IMG/VR virus record: IMGVR_UViG_3300027759_004671
Location: 1-32,127 of that record
Direction: 5' to 3' (one strand)
Source: a virus
DNA length: 32,127 bases
Shown: positions 2,633 through 20,866 of the stretch, piece after piece
Numbering within the stretch: the first letter of the stretch is position 1
How the letters are laid out: every line of letters begins with the position of its first letter
The notes under the pieces: model-generated
Told to the model about the DNA's origin: nothing
Databases searched by the model: none
The model's input: the letters and a program-made list of their open reading frames with translations, nothing else
Program-made: the position numbers and the translations under genes

Positions 2633-3721
2633 ATGGTCATTAAGGTTAAAGCTAAACCCAAACAGATCTCTCGTGCGGCTATTCGGTCGATCGATGACAA
2701 AGCCTATGGATCAGAACCCATCGTAATCGATGGCTATAGCAATGCTCTGAATTGGTATAACTACATGGCATCTGATGATCAGTCACGCGACTGGTTCTTC
2801 ACTTATGCCAAGAAAAATTATACCAAGGACCAACTCGCACTCCTACGCAAGCTTCCAAAGTGGAAGATTTCCAAGACTCTTGGTAACGTTGCACGTATTC
2901 TCCTGAATGGCAATGAGCTGCCGCAAAAGAATCTCGACTATTTTAATGATAGTGTAAAGAATCTCCTTGCGGCAGCTACGCAGATTGTCGAAGAAGTCGA
3001 AGACGCGCCAAAGACTGTCGTCGATATTCAAGCTCGCATTCGTGAAAAAGCCAACTACATCATCACGAGTCTCGAAGAAGAACTCGATAATGTCATCGAT
3101 GGCAAAGAGTTCTCGATGTACACCTTCTGTCAAGCGAACGAACTGAACGCACAGATTCTCGGCATCGTAGCTGACTACTATCGTCCTCAATATACAGAGA
3201 TTATGTCGAATGACGAGCAAGTTCAAGAAGCTTTCGGCAAGCGTCTAAAGTTTTGGATTAACTTTTGGCAGAGTTTCTTCGGTGACATCGACCGTTATGT
3301 AAATAACAAGAAGGCTGTCAAGGTTCGTAAGCCACGTGAGAAGAAAGCAAAGTCTGCAGTCGATCTGGTCAAGAACCTTAAATATCAGAAGGAAGAGCCT
3401 TCACTCAAGATTGTCTCTGTCCATCCAGCAGAGATCGTAGGATGTACACAGCTATGGACTTACAACACCAAATACAAGAAGTTGGCTCGATACGATTCGA
3501 GTGGTCCAGCTGGAATCCAAGTGAAGGGCACTACCTTGATTGGTTATGACGTCGAGACTTCTACAAGCAAGAGCTTGCGAAAGCCAGATGTTTCTATTCA
3601 AGCATTGCTCGGTGCAGGCAAAGTCAGCCTACGTAAGTTCATGGACGAGATCAAGACCGTAGAGTCGAAGCCGAATGGCCGAATCAATCAAGACACCATT
3701 CTACTAAGGGTTATTAAATGA
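2633..3721 (+). CDS. Conserved T4-type phage protein of unknown function
   Basis: 362 aa, soluble, with no catalytic motif that I recognise. Residues 1-120 are charged and probably helical. The middle (about 130-160) is Glu/Ile-rich helix. A strongly basic stretch at about 226-243 (KKAVKVRKPREKKAKS) could bind nucleic acid. The C-terminal third looks like a compact beta-rich domain. It is the first gene after the 2571 promoter, has an AGAGG ribosome site, and overlaps the next gene by 4 nt (ATGA). It belongs to the operon leading into RNase H, so a role in early DNA metabolism is plausible but unproven. Confidence 0.6.
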   Translation: MVIKVKAKPKQISRAAIRSIDDKAYGSEPIVIDGYSNALNWYNYMASDDQSRDWFFTYAKKNYTKDQLALLRKLPKWKISKTLGNVARILLNGNELPQKNLDYFNDSVKNLLAAATQIVEEVEDAPKTVVDIQARIREKANYIITSLEEELDNVIDGKEFSMYTFCQANELNAQILGIVADYYRPQYTEIMSNDEQVQEAFGKRLKFWINFWQSFFGDIDRYVNNKKAVKVRKPREKKAKSAVDLVKNLKYQKEEPSLKIVSVHPAEIVGCTQLWTYNTKYKKLARYDSSGPAGIQVKGTTLIGYDVETSTSKSLRKPDVSIQALLGAGKVSLRKFMDEIKTVESKPNGRINQDTILLRVIK

Positions 3722-6571: not shown

Positions 6572-7229
6572 AGGTTTCGAATACGATTTGCTAGACTTTG
6601 CGGAGCTGCAAAGGATAGATGGTCCAACACGTCTCTATGAGACGCCAGAAGGGAAGAGATATCCGTCTGTCACCGCCGTCCTCGGTAAGATGACTGATAA
6701 GTCTGCCCTTGAAGCTTGGAAGAAAAGAGTCGGCGAGGACGAAGCAGCTCGAGTTTCATCTCGGGCTGCCACTCGTGGAACTAACATCCATACCATGTGT
6801 GAGAACTACGTGTTAGGTCATGACATCGATACGTCGATGCCTCATAACATGATGATGTTCCGCCAGATCAAGATGATCCTTGACGACAAGGTCGACATGA
6901 TCCGAGCCACAGAATGCACTCTGTTCTCTGATCATCTGAAGTTAGCAGGTTCTTGCGACCTCATAGCAGACTACGACGGTCGTTTGTCGATCATCGATTA
7001 CAAGACGTCTGCGAAACTCAAGCGTAAGGACTGGATCGAAGGATACTTTCTACAGACCAGTCTCTATGCATACATGCTATGGGAGATGACAGGCATCTTA
7101 GTGAAGGACATCGTGATCATCATCGGTGTCGACGATTCTCTCGAGGCACAGGTGTTTAGGGAACGACCTCAAAACTATCTTGAGAAAGCGACCGATCTGG
7201 TTCGATCTTACCATCAAATGTACGGATAA
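6540..7229 (+). CDS. PD-(D/E)XK exonuclease, RecB/Cas4-like
   Basis: 229 aa with the RecB-nuclease motifs: R-G-T-N-I-H (about residues 78-83), GSCDLIADYDG carrying the motif II Asp, IDYKTSAKLK as the D/E-x-K motif III, and FLQTSLYAYML as the Q-x-x-x-Y motif. There are no four-Cys Fe-S ligands, so it is RecB-like rather than true Cas4. Such enzymes are thought to process DNA ends in T4-like phages without a classic gp47 neighbour; gp46/47 are not in this window. TTG start with AAGGA at 6527-6531, 8 nt upstream, overlapping phoH. It is followed by a strong terminator. Confidence 0.82.
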   Translation: MLVKNSDFNRKGFEYDLLDFAELQRIDGPTRLYETPEGKRYPSVTAVLGKMTDKSALEAWKKRVGEDEAARVSSRAATRGTNIHTMCENYVLGHDIDTSMPHNMMMFRQIKMILDDKVDMIRATECTLFSDHLKLAGSCDLIADYDGRLSIIDYKTSAKLKRKDWIEGYFLQTSLYAYMLWEMTGILVKDIVIIIGVDDSLEAQVFRERPQNYLEKATDLVRSYHQMYG

Positions 7230-7230
7230 G

Positions 7231-7258
7231 AAAATGCGGCTTCGGTCGCATTTTTTTT
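7231..7258 (+). terminator. Rho-independent terminator after the nuclease gene
   Basis: Stem AAAATGCGGC (7231-7240), loop TTCG, then GTCGCATTTT (7245-7254), running into a T tract to 7258. The 10-bp stem contains one G-U pair and is closed by a C(UUCG)G tetraloop. It starts right after the stop at 7229 and ends the 2633-7229 operon. The next promoter follows directly. Confidence 0.9.
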
Positions 7259-7264
7259 GACAAT

Positions 7265-7309
7265 AAACATGTACATTTTATCAAAACTTTGGTAAGGTGG
7301 ACCTATAAT
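7265..7309 (+). promoter_or_regulatory. Phage promoter, CATGTACA class
   Basis: TGTACA is at 7270-7275. At 17 nt is TGG-TAAGGT (7293-7298), an extended -10-like element. A perfect TATAAT also lies at 7304-7309 but with 28-nt spacing. The 48 nt at 7262-7309 are identical to 7694-7741, so this is a duplicated promoter block. It drives the gene at 7328. Confidence 0.62.
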
Positions 7310-7327
7310 CAAGAAGGAAAAAATATT

Positions 7328-7531
7328 ATGACTCGCTTATTTGAATACATCCTCGCTCAAGATGATCCTTTCGATTTCATCTATGAAGCCCTCGGTGGAA
7401 CTCATGGTGTTGAAACCATGAACACCTGCACTGAAATGTACTACGATATCTCTGCAGACTATCGTTTGCATCCAGATGATGACTTCGAACGCATCATTGA
7501 GATTATGGTCGATCAGATGGAGGTTGTATGA
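7328..7531 (+). CDS. Small acidic phage protein, 67 aa, unknown
   Basis: Start chosen at the ATG at 7328 (MTRLFEYILAQDDPFDF), with AAGGA at 7314-7318. An upstream in-frame ATG at 7289 would lie inside the promoter and is unlikely. The protein is strongly acidic, without cysteine pairs or a membrane segment, and ends EIMVDQMEVV. It is separated from the nuclease operon by the terminator and has its own promoter, like other small early accessory genes of T4-like phages. No family recognised. Confidence 0.6.
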   Translation: MTRLFEYILAQDDPFDFIYEALGGTHGVETMNTCTEMYYDISADYRLHPDDDFERIIEIMVDQMEVV

Positions 7532-7698
7532 CTAGTCCTGTTATCGGTTACTTCGGTCAAGACACCGTTCAGCGAGCAATCGCCGAATACTTCTCCAAGC
7601 ATGGCATCACAGAAGATGTTCGTGACTATCTCATGGTCCTCGAGGACGAAAAGCCCGATGATTTTTTTCAGCTAGTTTGTGATTTTATTGAAAAATAA
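7528..7698 (+). CDS. Small acidic protein, 56 aa, unknown
   Basis: ATG at 7528 overlaps the preceding stop (ATGA), with GGAGG just upstream at 7519-7523. The frame reads MTSPVIGYFGQDTVQ... to ...FFQLVCDFIEK and stops at 7696-7698, already within the next promoter's upstream block. Composition is acidic and helical. The overlap and the ribosome site support real translation; function unknown. Confidence 0.58.
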   Translation: MTSPVIGYFGQDTVQRAIAEYFSKHGITEDVRDYLMVLEDEKPDDFFQLVCDFIEK

Positions 7699-7741
7699 AC
7701 ATGTACATTTTATCAAAACTTTGGTAAGGTGGACCTATAAT
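7697..7741 (+). promoter_or_regulatory. Phage promoter, CATGTACA class (duplicate copy)
   Basis: TGTACA at 7702-7707, TGG-TAAGGT at 7722-7730 and TATAAT at 7736-7741. It is identical to the block at 7262-7309 over 48 nt. It begins at the stop codon of the preceding ORF and drives the 47-aa ORF at 7758. Confidence 0.62.
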
Positions 7742-7757
7742 GAAGAAGGAAGCAAAC

Positions 7758-7901
7758 ATGAACAAGATTATTCAAGTTATCAGCGATATGAAGGCTACTA
7801 TGACTCCTGCAGAGTTTCGCAACGAGATGCTCGCTAGCCTCGCTTTTCTCATTATGGCTCCAATCCTGTTCGCAGGTTTTTGGATCATTACTCCAGCGTA
7901 A
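7758..7901 (+). CDS. Small membrane protein, 47 aa, unknown
   Basis: Short ORF with AAGGA (7746-7750) before the ATG. The N-terminal half is amphipathic (MNKIIQVISDMKATMTPAEF). The C-terminal half is one hydrophobic segment (ASLAFLIMAPILFAGFWII, about residues 26-44) ending in TPA. It is a likely single-span inner-membrane protein under its own early-type promoter. It could affect the host envelope or act as a holin-like or superinfection factor, but nothing in the sequence decides this. Confidence 0.55.
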   Translation: MNKIIQVISDMKATMTPAEFRNEMLASLAFLIMAPILFAGFWIITPA

Positions 7902-7904
7902 ATT

Positions 7905-7938
7905 AAACATGTACAAATAGGCCATTCTATGGTAGAAT
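7905..7938 (+). promoter_or_regulatory. Phage promoter, CATGTACA-N17-TAGAAT
   Basis: TGTACA at 7910-7915, 17 nt, then TAGAAT at 7933-7938 preceded by TGG (extended -10). This is the best -10 match of the class and defines the spacing. It drives the DUF932 gene at 7971. Confidence 0.72.
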
Positions 7939-7970
7939 GGTTATACCAAATTGAAAAAGGAAACTATATT

Positions 7971-8918
7971 ATGGCTCATATGATTGAATTTCTCGACGGC
8001 AAGGCTTCGATGGCTTATGCAGGCGAAACACCTTGGCATCACCTCGGCACGAAGGTCTCGAACGACCTCACACCGAATCAGATGCTGAAGGCAGCAAACC
8101 TCGACTGGAAGGTAAATCCAGTTCCTGCTTTCGCCGAAATCGGTGGTAAGCAAGTCGACATCGGTCACTCCGCTCTCGTTCGTGACGTCGACAATAAAAT
8201 CCTTGATGTGATCACGAACGATTGGGTTCCTAACCAGAACGAATCGGCCTTCGAATTCTTCAATGATTTCGTTGCAGCCGGTGAGATGGAAATGCACACC
8301 GCTGGTTCGCTTCGCGATGGTCAACTTGTTTGGGCTTTGGCGAAGGTAAAGGATTCTTTCGAATTGTTCAAGGGCGATCGCGTCGATTCCTATCTTCTCT
8401 TCACCAATCCGCACAAGTATGGTTGGTCGATCGATGTTCGCTTCACTCCAGTTCGCGTCGTCTGCAACAACACTCTCACTCTCTCGCTCAACAGCCAGTC
8501 GAGCAAGATTGTCAAGGTTAGCCATCGTCGCGAGTTTGACGGTGACGTTGTGAAGGAAACACTCGGTGTCGCCAAGGAAAAGCTTGCCAAGTACAAGGAA
8601 ATGGCTGCTTATCTTGGTTCGAAGCGTTACACCGACGAGAACATCGTCGAGTATTTCCAACGTGTGTTCCCTGTCACTGGTACGAAGAAAGATCTCAGCA
8701 AAAATGCTGGTATCGCTCTCGAAATCATGGACCAACAGCCTGGTGCCGAATACGGCGAAGGTAGCTGGTGGCAGGCTTTCAACGCAGTCACCTTCATGAC
8801 CGACCACATGATCGGTCGCAATGCAGATAATCGTATGACTTCTGCTTGGTACGGTTCGAACAAGAACCTGAAGACGAAGGCGCTCGAAACTGCGGTGGAG
8901 TTTGCAGATGCTGCCTAA
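7971..8918 (+). CDS. DUF932 / phage-plasmid-like protein (TIGR03299 type)
   Basis: 315 aa from ATG 7971 (MAHMIEFLDGKASMAYAGET), preceded by AAAAAGGAAA. The longer frame from 7929 starts upstream of the promoter's expected transcript start and is rejected. The family is recognised by the N-terminal ...YAGETPWHHLGTKVS, a central RDGQLVWALAKV, TPVRVVCNNTLTLSL and a helical C-terminus. DUF932 proteins occur on phages and plasmids; their function is not established. A dedicated promoter and Ala/Lys-rich codon-optimised sequence suggest strong early expression. A UUCG hairpin directly follows the stop. Confidence 0.8.
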   Translation: MAHMIEFLDGKASMAYAGETPWHHLGTKVSNDLTPNQMLKAANLDWKVNPVPAFAEIGGKQVDIGHSALVRDVDNKILDVITNDWVPNQNESAFEFFNDFVAAGEMEMHTAGSLRDGQLVWALAKVKDSFELFKGDRVDSYLLFTNPHKYGWSIDVRFTPVRVVCNNTLTLSLNSQSSKIVKVSHRREFDGDVVKETLGVAKEKLAKYKEMAAYLGSKRYTDENIVEYFQRVFPVTGTKKDLSKNAGIALEIMDQQPGAEYGEGSWWQAFNAVTFMTDHMIGRNADNRMTSAWYGSNKNLKTKALETAVEFADAA

Positions 8919-9496: not shown

Positions 9497-9934
9497 ATGA
9501 AGAATTTTATCGCATTCGCACTGCTCTTGATGGCAACTCCTGTCATCGCACAGAAGACGCCTGTCGGCGTGACATATGACGCAAAGATTATCCGCGCGAT
9601 TGATGGTGATACCATCGTCATTACCGCACCATACCTTCCAGCTCCTTTAAAGCCTGAACTCGGCGTTCGTATCTTTGGTGTCGATACACCTGAAAAAAGT
9701 TTTCGTGCAAAGTGTGAGAGCGAAAAAGTACGCGGCGAACAGGCTTCTGTTTTTGTCAAAGATGTGATTGCTGGTACGAAGAAACATCAGGTTGTTCTGT
9801 ATGATTGGGACAAGTTCGGTGGTCGTGTTCTTGGAGATATCCTCCTTGATGGCATGAGCCTTCGAGATCTTCTTATCAAGAACAGTTTTGCACGTGCATA
9901 TTTTGGTGATGCAAAGCAATCTTGGTGCAATTAA
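9497..9934 (+). CDS. Exported thermonuclease (staphylococcal nuclease family)
   Basis: 145 aa with an N-terminal signal peptide (MKNFIAFALLLMATPVIAQ) and an SNase domain: AIDGDTIVI, VRIFGVDTPEKSF with the equivalents of Arg35, Asp40 and Glu43, and DKFGGRVLGDI carrying the Arg87 equivalent with one extra Gly. SNases cut DNA and RNA with Ca2+. Being secreted to the periplasm, it could degrade DNA there, for example incoming superinfecting phage DNA or host nucleic acid at lysis. It is close to the exported gene before it (AAGGA ribosome site in the 9-nt gap) and precedes the tmRNA promoter. Confidence 0.85.
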   Translation: MKNFIAFALLLMATPVIAQKTPVGVTYDAKIIRAIDGDTIVITAPYLPAPLKPELGVRIFGVDTPEKSFRAKCESEKVRGEQASVFVKDVIAGTKKHQVVLYDWDKFGGRVLGDILLDGMSLRDLLIKNSFARAYFGDAKQSWCN

Positions 9935-9966
9935 GCATGTACAATTAAAGAAAAACATTGTATATA
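9933..9966 (+). promoter_or_regulatory. Phage promoter for the tmRNA, CATGTACA-N17-TATATA
   Basis: TGTACA at 9938-9943, exactly 17 nt, TATATA at 9961-9966. It is the same class as the promoters at 2571, 7270, 7702 and 7910. The predicted start near 9973 fits the 5' end of the tmRNA acceptor piece. It shows the tmRNA is under phage control rather than being a passive host fragment. Confidence 0.7.
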
Positions 9967-9972
9967 TAGAAT

Positions 9973-10037
9973 ATCAGTTGTTGACAATCAACAATAAAGG
10001 CGGAAAGACCGGGGTTCGACTCCCCGCACCTCCACCA
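9973..10037 (+). ncRNA. ssrA: tmRNA acceptor piece (3' tRNA-like half)
   Basis: The 5' end is inferred from the promoter. It contains the P2 3' strand CGGAAA, the T arm with TTCGACT loop, the acceptor 3' strand CACCTCC, discriminator A and a genome-encoded CCA. About 65 nt, a reasonable size for the acceptor RNA of two-piece tmRNAs. There is no matching 5' half upstream, which excludes an ordinary tRNA. Confidence 0.85.
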
Positions 10038-10138
10038 TAGATACATTGGACGGTCTTAGCCTGCTCGGCGGACCGGTTACCTTGGCGGGTAGCGAACGAT
10101 AGTGCGCCAACACTGTTTATATCCAGTGTGTCTATGAT
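10038..10138 (+). ncRNA. tmRNA internal transcribed spacer
   Basis: Joins the acceptor CCA to the first G of the coding piece; about 100 nt. It contains inverted segments (for example TTGGCG at 10083-10088 with CGCCAA at 10105-10110, and ACACTG with CAGTGT near 10111-10128) that would fold into hairpins. Expected to be cut out by host RNases as in alphaproteobacterial ssrA. Confidence 0.75.
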
Positions 10139-10362
10139 GGGGGTGACCTTGGAATTCGATTTTCGTGTAATAGGGCGGTTTGAGACTGATTCGGTGGCTG
10201 AGCGGCCAAAAAACAACAAATGCTAACGATAACAACGCATATGAAGGTCTTGCTCTAGCAGCATGATTTTTCGGGGTTCGATGGGTACCTGGCAACAGAA
10301 ACCCATCACTTACTACCAGTTGAATCGCTGGTGCTACGAGTCGCCAGAAAAACAGCTGGCGA
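10139..10362 (+). ncRNA. ssrA: tmRNA coding piece (5' half with tag frame)
   Basis: Begins GGGGGTGACCTTGGAATTCG. It continues through P2 and a pseudoknot-like G-rich/C-rich region (about 10172-10208) to the A-rich AAAAAACAACAAAT before the resume codon. After the tag stop come GATGGGT/ACCCATC and ACCAG/CTGGT helices and a final 7-bp hairpin, TCGCCAG (10341-10347) with CTGGCGA (10356-10362). The 3' end is not precisely known. Confidence 0.82.
10222..10266 (+). other. ssrA: tmRNA proteolysis-tag reading frame, ANDNNAYEGLALAA
   Basis: GCT resume codon at 10222-10224 through TGA at 10264-10266 encodes 14 residues, ANDNNAYEGLALAA. With the alanine carried by the tRNA-like domain, the full tag is A-ANDNNAYEGLALAA. 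The AND start and hydrophobic LAA end are the hallmarks recognised by SspB and ClpXP/ClpAP in bacteria. The ALAA terminus indicates a functional degradation tag rather than a decoy. Confidence 0.88.
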
Positions 10363-10365
10363 TAG

Positions 10366-10373
10366 TATAAATA
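10366..10373 (+). promoter_or_regulatory. T4-type late promoter box TATAAATA
   Basis: Exact late octamer just past the tmRNA's terminal hairpin. The 16 nt GTATAAATAAAATATG (10365-10380) recur exactly at 20294-20309. It probably drives late transcription of the cell-wall hydrolase at 10625 through a leader of about 245 nt. An ATG at 10378 lies 4 nt after the box. Confidence 0.7.
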
Positions 10374-20362: not shown

Positions 20363-20866
20363 ATGTTTATTTATACTAATCTCTATAAGACTTGCACGCG
20401 CAATTTTAATGCAATTTCTAATACACTTGGACTGTCAGATATTGATCCTCCATCTTATGAAGAATTTTGCGAGTCTGTATTGCATCATGATGCTAGTATA
20501 ATTTCGGGCCCGATGCTTAATAAAAACCACTCAAAAGAATCAAAAAAACTAATAAGCATTGCCAACCGCGGTTTAAAAAGAACCGATGAAACAAAGAAAA
20601 ATATAAGCGCGGCGCTGTTAGCATCACCAAATGCTCGTGTCAAAAATCAAGACGGGTGTTTAAATCCGATGTTTAATAAAAAACATTCTGATGAAACAAA
20701 AAAGAAAATGAGTAAAAAACGAAACGGACAATCTTCTCCATCCATAGGAAAAACGTGGAAAAGATCAATCGCAGCTGGAAAAAAACAATCCTTCACAGTA
20801 ACCGGGCGAAAAAGATTTTATAAACCTGACGGTTCTTGGGCTTGGATATATCCTATTAAAACTTAA
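20363..20866 (+). CDS. NUMOD3-type DNA-binding protein, homing-endonuclease relative or remnant
   Basis: 167 aa; AAGGAG about 10 nt upstream supports ATG 20363. The C-terminal two thirds carry repeats of the nuclease-associated modular DNA-binding type: GPMLNKNHSKESKKLISIANRG, split at residues 49-70, and LNPMFNKKHSDETKKKMSKK at about 117-136, plus an intermediate copy KRTDETKKNISAALLAS. GKTWKRSIAAGKKQSFTVTGRKRFYKPDG follows. I see no GIY-YIG, H-N-H or PD-(D/E)XK catalytic motif in the first 48 residues, so it may be a nuclease that lost its catalytic domain, or a stand-alone binding protein. It runs opposite to its neighbours and is bounded by the 13-bp repeats. Confidence 0.65.
   Translation: MFIYTNLYKTCTRNFNAISNTLGLSDIDPPSYEEFCESVLHHDASIISGPMLNKNHSKESKKLISIANRGLKRTDETKKNISAALLASPNARVKNQDGCLNPMFNKKHSDETKKKMSKKRNGQSSPSIGKTWKRSIAAGKKQSFTVTGRKRFYKPDGSWAWIYPIKT
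20368..20375 (-). promoter_or_regulatory. Minus-strand TATAAATA box facing gp2, inside the inserted ORF
   Basis: TATTTATA on the plus strand, within the first codons of the inserted ORF. On the minus strand it is an exact late octamer about 90 nt upstream of gp2, so the insertion may supply late transcription to gp2-gp54-gp26. A chance occurrence is possible. Confidence 0.45.

Follow-up and report, generated by a model that had tools for sequence, protein, structure and literature searches.

A tmRNA gene carried by a T4-like phage holds, between its two pieces, a spacer that sequence comparison identifies as a recombining slot: what it contains is replaced independently of the flanks, while its two ends are constrained to pair. 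The gene was analyzed in a 32,127-base IMG/VR virus record (the whole stretch is called the window below), where positions 9938-10362 make up a complete circularly permuted two-piece tmRNA gene. We consider it very likely that it specifies a working two-piece tmRNA, which would be processed, charged and used for tagging, with a spacer slot refilled by recombination.

The first-pass annotation had held that a two-piece tmRNA in a T4-type phage was little described, but one was published in 2022 for the T4-like Methylophilales phage Melnitz, in a study that counted 133 unique tmRNA structures in public phage genomes, 53 of them two-piece and 50 of these 53 marine or aquatic (PMC9004378). The same work already proposed that such RNAs maintain the hijacked machinery or tag host proteins, and another lists 79 unique phage tmRNAs (PMC11915505). 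The existence of phage two-piece tmRNAs is already known; the unreported part, as far as searched, is the behavior of the spacer, nothing on spacer exchange in two-piece tmRNAs having been found in the open-access literature.

ARAGORN called a permuted tmRNA at 9942-10357 (+) with the tag ANDNNAYEGLALAA, and two Rfam models gave full-length matches above their gathering cut-offs, namely RF04321 (tmRNA_permuted) at 9976-10266 with 92.6 bits and E=6.8e-17 (cut-off 47) and RF01849 (alpha_tmRNA) at 9934-10310 with 88 bits and E=8.7e-23 (cut-off 50). The agreement of the three bears out the proposed alphaproteobacterial-type permuted tmRNA, and the T arm, CCA, acceptor stem, G3-U70, P2 and tag named in the first-pass annotation all lie in the sequence at or adjoining the positions it gave. 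The 3' tRNA-like half is upstream of the 5' half; CACCTCC (10027-10033) and GGGGGTG (10139-10145) form a seven-pair acceptor stem including G3-U70, TTTTCG (10160-10165) pairs with CGGAAA (10001-10006) in P2, and the tag frame, with its LAA end, is followed by TGA (Table 1). The 3' end of the gene differs by tool, the Rfam alignment reaching 10310 and ARAGORN 10357.

Table 1. Features of the tmRNA gene and its surroundings (window positions)
Feature	Position	Strand	Basis
Sigma-70-type promoter, TGTACA (9938-9943)-N17-TATATA (9961-9966)	9938..9966	+	sequence; relatives
3' tRNA-like (acceptor) piece: P2 strand, T arm, CACCTCC, A73, CCA	9968..10037 (5' boundary provisional)	+	RF04321/RF01849 alignments, sequence
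T arm	10010-10026	+	sequence
Discriminator A; CCA	10034; 10035-10037	+	sequence
Spacer, 101-nt cassette	10038..10138	+	between CCA and G1; folding, relatives
Spacer closing helix	10038-10050/10122-10134	+	predicted fold
Spacer hairpins	10051-10075, 10076-10093, 10098-10117	+	predicted fold
Possible kissing contact	10082-10087/10105-10110	+	predicted
Spacer 3' tail TGAT	10135-10138	+	sequence
mRNA-like piece, 5' end: GGGGGTG, P2 strand 10160-10165, up to resume codon	10139..10221	+	sequence, Rfam
Tag reading frame ANDNNAYEGLALAA (10222-10263) and stop TGA (10264-10266)	10222..10266	+	ARAGORN, Rfam
mRNA-like piece, 3' part, hairpin with conserved CCTGGCAACAGAA element	10267..10357	+	ARAGORN, Rfam
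T4-type late-promoter motif TATAAATA, directly behind tmRNA gene	10366..10373	+	motif count

In piece order, G3-U70, P2, tag and the 3' element CCTGGCAACAGAA, the RNA is like the Caulobacter-type alphaproteobacterial tmRNA (RF01849, RF04321), whose spacers also form a hairpin, often with a TGAT end. It differs in its T loop, the canonical TTCGACT instead of the usual GCGGTAC, and in its spacer, which is 101 nt long against a bacterial median of 36 and belongs to a phage group in which unrelated cassettes are swapped. YrlA-type Y RNAs (RF02553) are likewise permuted tRNAs in their topology, and a loop closes their acceptor-like stem. These lack a tag frame, whereas the window RNA matches the tmRNA models instead, and the Rfam search of the window gave no match to RF02553.

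The surrounding genes (PhoH, exonuclease, gp59 loader, gp32, tail tube, baseplate wedge and hub) are of T4 type, in keeping with the T4-like phage first proposed; the gene set is that of a lytic phage, with no integrase among the window proteins searched. Of the promoter claim, the presence of TGTACA-N17-TATATA upstream of the tmRNA stands, but the four further matches in the window do not: the scan gave one exact match, the other five carry two mismatches each, and such matches are no more frequent than chance (2.6 expected; six reached in 7 of 100 shuffles). Despite this lack of excess, comparison with relatives indicates a real tmRNA promoter, because the same architecture, (TGTACA or TTGACA/T)-N17-(TATAAA or TATATA), recurs upstream of the gene in 56 of 66 relatives, where shuffled sequences gave 0.7, with TGTACA, TTGACA or TTGACT at -35, TATATA or TATAAA at -10 and a spacing of exactly 17. 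The late-promoter motif behind the gene, whose T4 consensus is established knowledge and is also given in PMC9004378, has seven copies in the window against 1.7 expected, a number seen in 0 of 100 shuffles. Two further features of the window were recorded: a staphylococcal-nuclease-like gene (PF00565, 9497-9934) ends three bases before the tmRNA promoter, and a homing-endonuclease-like gene (phrog_314, 20363-20866), flanked by the genes for DNA end protector and head closure, adjoins late-promoter motifs.

Relatives were collected from viral metagenome contigs via T-arm, leader and 5'-piece patterns and, separately, via gp32. After duplicate removal, 98 different phage tmRNAs remained, 68 of them in the window's clade; the patterns demand the acceptor/T-arm block, and conservation of those letters in this set is partly by construction. 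Within the 68 distinct relatives, the non-empty cassettes fall by sequence into at least 35 unrelated families (Chao1 estimate about 81). Among tmRNA pairs with a mature identity of at least 97%, 217 of 236 carry cassettes of different families, and in 180 of these pairs, whose flanks were long enough for comparison, the median identity was 0.52 in the spacer (shuffled 0.47), 0.83 in the leader and 0.72 in the following 120 bases. Identical or near-identical cassettes also occur in flanks just 66-87% alike, as with a 122-nt cassette that is 98-100% identical where the leader and T-arm part are 71-76% and the 5' part 78-81% identical. The 101-nt cassette of the window is identical in L460, whose tag differs, and recurs in four more viral contigs, each time filling exactly the interval from CCA to G1; it had no match in cultured phage or plasmid collections. 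Two contigs with a gp32 99% identical to that of the window (L123 and L124) carry two further cassettes. When three cassettes were sought in 2.9 million viral contigs, 27 of the 28 contigs with one of them had it exactly in the tmRNA spacer, bounded by CCA and G1 (4/4, 11/11 and 12/13 per cassette). It is because near-identical tmRNAs differ in cassette and near-identical cassettes sit in divergent flanks that we read the spacer as a recombining slot, and this mosaicism points to recombination as the mechanism of swapping.

The bacterial control was repeated with congeneric genomes, as short spacers made a first comparison weak. In 472 bacterial pairs with a mature identity of at least 97%, many of them congeneric, the median spacer identity was 0.76 and 5% fell below 0.6; in the 236 phage pairs it was 0.52, with 89% below 0.6 (shuffled baseline 0.47). 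Judged from these alignments, congeneric bacterial spacers drift yet stay homologous, and size together with wholesale replacement is a phage feature.

What stays constant is the way in which the spacer is closed. In the window, the acceptor stem and spacer are predicted to fold at -63.7 kcal/mol (z=-6.6), forming an almost uninterrupted helix with a three-hairpin junction at its tip. Across 47 unrelated cassettes, pairs 2-9 of the closing helix show standard pairing in 96-100%, and between two and five pair types occur at each of them; a terminal helix of at least seven pairs is found in 92% of phage spacers versus 3% of shuffles, and 42 of 50 cassettes end in TGAT. The architecture of the closing hairpin is inherited, since bacterial spacers share a shorter version of it. 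Over all phage tmRNAs, spacer lengths range from 4 to 157 nt, with a median of 82 nt versus 36 nt in bacteria.

These elements suggest how the RNA would work. A single precursor would be transcribed from the promoter at 9938, and the acceptor stem, extended by the closing helix of the spacer, would make it resemble a pre-tRNA with a hairpin-capped acceptor end, a model supported by folding and by covariation across relatives. By analogy with bacterial two-piece tmRNAs, host RNase P would cut before G10139 and host 3' tRNA-processing enzymes would free CCA10037; the spacer would be removed, and the two RNAs would stay joined by the acceptor stem and P2. Host alanyl-tRNA synthetase would charge the tmRNA via G3-U70. 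No SmpB was found in the ten phage records searched (the same search was positive in 10 of 14 control genomes), so host SmpB, a protein present in nearly all bacteria (PMC11915505), would be used to bring the tmRNA to stalled ribosomes, where the nascent chain would receive ANDNNAYEGLALAA, which carries the LAA terminus usual for such tags. Since the spacer would be cut out, pairing would be required of its ends alone, and the slot would be refilled repeatedly by recombination, most simply between the conserved T-arm/CCA block and GGGGGTGAC. The phage most likely keeps the tmRNA for ribosome recycling during infection; replacing the host tag would be another conceivable function.

The non-empty cassettes (28-157 nt) are mostly compact RNA folds, and an Rfam search of the spacers of 12 loci, down to E=5, returned tmRNA and chance matches alone. 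We give about an even chance to the view that, in a real tmRNA, the cassettes are meaningless, the discarded spacer tolerating any end-pairing sequence and turning over fast by recombination and drift. Intact tmRNAs with empty 5-nt spacers (L017, L232 and L251) favor it, as do the variation of bacterial spacers inside a conserved closing stem and the fact that most cassettes match no known family. It fits less well with the larger size of the phage slots and with the fact that the cassettes form no continuum but separate families, whose members match perfectly or almost perfectly despite divergent flanks. It also has to accommodate an 82-nt family in which, over only seven sequences, 21 pairs are kept in 100% of cells, with changes in both strands at three of them, of which two belong to the closing helix and the third to an internal hairpin; its covariation score was reached by 0 of 500 shuffles and slid structures fail, though seven related sequences are few. 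A T-arm-like hairpin, moreover, occurs in 5 of 50 cassettes against 0.02 in shuffles.

Some cassettes also contain reading frames. In three related ones (L034, L106 and L256), a frame of 57-58 codons, with AGAGGA directly after CCA, continues into the 5' piece; it begins MVICSCRDIRDSQYTN and shows a CxC...CxxC cysteine pattern. Another small frame, in the L205 spacer, begins MYRIEYNGGGCYVC, and the spacer of Melnitz (MZ577097.1, about 46076-46217) contains an unannotated one, MFKWLSKTRLVVITRD...; all of them have a purine-rich stretch upstream and continue into the 5' piece of the tmRNA. Tentatively, and with some doubt, the spacer could be seen as a cargo slot: from each precursor, tRNA-processing enzymes would excise a small RNA, folded and capped, or make a small reading frame accessible, and phages would exchange such cargoes to target different hosts or defences. 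We lean slightly towards mostly tolerated filling, with selection for some cassettes (the 82-nt family, those with a T-arm-like hairpin and those with reading frames).

That the cassettes are mobile elements inserting themselves at this point seems to us unlikely. In three families the ends are precise, the cassette starting directly behind CCA and stopping directly ahead of G1, and the cassettes have terminal inverted repeats, but these repeats differ between families, no target duplication was seen, and against the 27 of 28 contigs with the cassette exactly in the spacer there is a single copy clearly outside, from the 82-nt family. This copy (L116, 749-825) sits behind a hairpin resembling a tmRNA 3' end (AACCTTGCAACAGAATCCCGCC), after an inserted reading frame.

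Conservation was assessed with the gp32-derived relatives (contigs with at least 5 kb upstream), which form an independent set. Far from degenerating in related phages, an outcome considered in the first-pass annotation, the tmRNA is retained by 7 of the 8 contigs whose gp32 identity is at least 77%, and tags are intact, all with the LAA end, in the gp32-linked relatives having a tmRNA. Over the whole set it is found in 16 of 33 contigs; since the other 17 are without it by ARAGORN, the tmRNA is, on this count, dispensable in the wider phage group. A view of the RNA as a decoy or inhibitor of host tmRNA, which the tag-less tmRNA of phage DS6A inhibits in E. coli as cited in PMC11915505, is very improbable for this RNA, in which tag frame, stop, G3-U70 and LAA end are all intact, as they are across relatives.

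Whole-record searches found the tmRNA model in Melnitz, HTVC008M, Sphingobium phage Lacusarx, Rhizobium phage RHph_I1_18 and Ruegeria phage RpAliso, and not in Cr30 or phiM12. Melnitz and HTVC008M are, like the window, T4-like phages with an alphaproteobacterial-type permuted tmRNA and a related gene order: PDDEXK nuclease - tmRNA - late coactivator - gp59 in the former, PhoH - exonuclease - tmRNA - late factor - gp59 in the latter, and, in the window, the nuclease/PhoH side upstream and gp59 - gp32 downstream, the late factor not being among the identified genes and the intervening genes differing. This shared order suggests that the tmRNA has long been kept at one place. Their spacers (142 nt in Melnitz, 49 nt in HTVC008M) and tags are unlike those of the window, and spacer exchange was not described for Melnitz. 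A glutamine riboswitch of Melnitz was considered as spacer content and ruled out, as it sits downstream of the tmRNA. In HTVC008M (NC_020484.1, 145161-145370) the permuted tmRNA is unannotated and an annotated hypothetical gene overlaps its start. The other three, cultured phages of alphaproteobacteria with permuted tmRNAs too, were compared with the window at the level of the RNA; the RpAliso tmRNA gene is unannotated in its record, and within the phage collection the window tmRNA matches only 34 bases of this phage, around the T arm and CCA.

In a tree of 183 columns, the phage tmRNAs except that of Lacusarx fall outside a supported clade of 37 alphaproteobacterial tmRNAs (96/89); the alignment is short, the bootstrap values had yet to converge and one T-arm type is over-represented among the phage sequences, and we read the tree solely as suggesting that the phage tmRNAs are not recent host captures. 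The comparisons show that a complete permuted tmRNA has persisted across deeply diverged phages. The bacterial gene, ssrA, is a common integration site. Fragments of this origin are mentioned in PMC9004378, but a recent host capture or an attachment-site remnant of a temperate phage is very improbable, given a complete gene, a similar gene order over deep phage divergence, a position outside the sampled bacterial clade and a T4-like lytic gene set with no integrase among the proteins searched. By analogy, the host would be an alphaproteobacterium: the nearest gp6 baseplate proteins are those of Caulobacter phage Cr30 and Sinorhizobium phages, and the window gp32 is nearest to cyanophages. The T-arm pattern, tried as a host marker in 84,980 genomes, was useless, being common in ordinary tRNA-like genes of many phyla.

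Several observations concern other RNAs. RpAliso (L002, OR257569.1) has two unannotated YrlA-like matches (3242-3307 and 3388-3463; 34.7 and 42.3 bits, E 7.5e-5 and 5e-7, below the cut-off of 69), directly behind its permuted tmRNA (2864-3207, tag ANENFAPVEMAVAA). In L217 (8547-9073, -), permuted tRNA-like RNAs, one with a YrlA match of 41.2 bits, below the cut-off, adjoin a DUF2828/DUF7788 protein (6865-8277, -). An assignment of the L217 and RpAliso RNAs to permuted tRNA genes was replaced by these sub-threshold YrlA matches, and a reading of the L217 protein by eye as Ro60/TROVE gave way to the Pfam domains, which may be linked to Ro60. As the spacer closing one L217 RNA is 71% identical over 99 bases to the L243 tmRNA spacer, cassettes may be shared between tmRNAs and permuted tRNA-like RNAs. 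In eight bacterial genomes (G202, G289, G418, G421, G425, G428, G430 and G433, of which those from G418 to G433 were sampled to represent the genus of G161), the main alpha_tmRNA match (>300 bits) is accompanied by a weaker one (160-187 bits), a second tmRNA gene that perhaps lies on mobile elements.

The wholesale swapping of a spacer among nearly identical phages, under an end-pairing constraint, provides an unusual natural experiment. The slot reveals the extent to which the precursor of a two-piece tmRNA can accommodate inserts, and offers dozens of ready-made processing substrates. It also points to a class of exchangeable phage RNAs that, hidden within tmRNA calls, escape ordinary gene annotation. 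Should some cassettes be functional, they would be candidate host-takeover or counter-defence RNAs, and, if the cargo reading is true, tmRNA transcription would double as a small-RNA delivery system.
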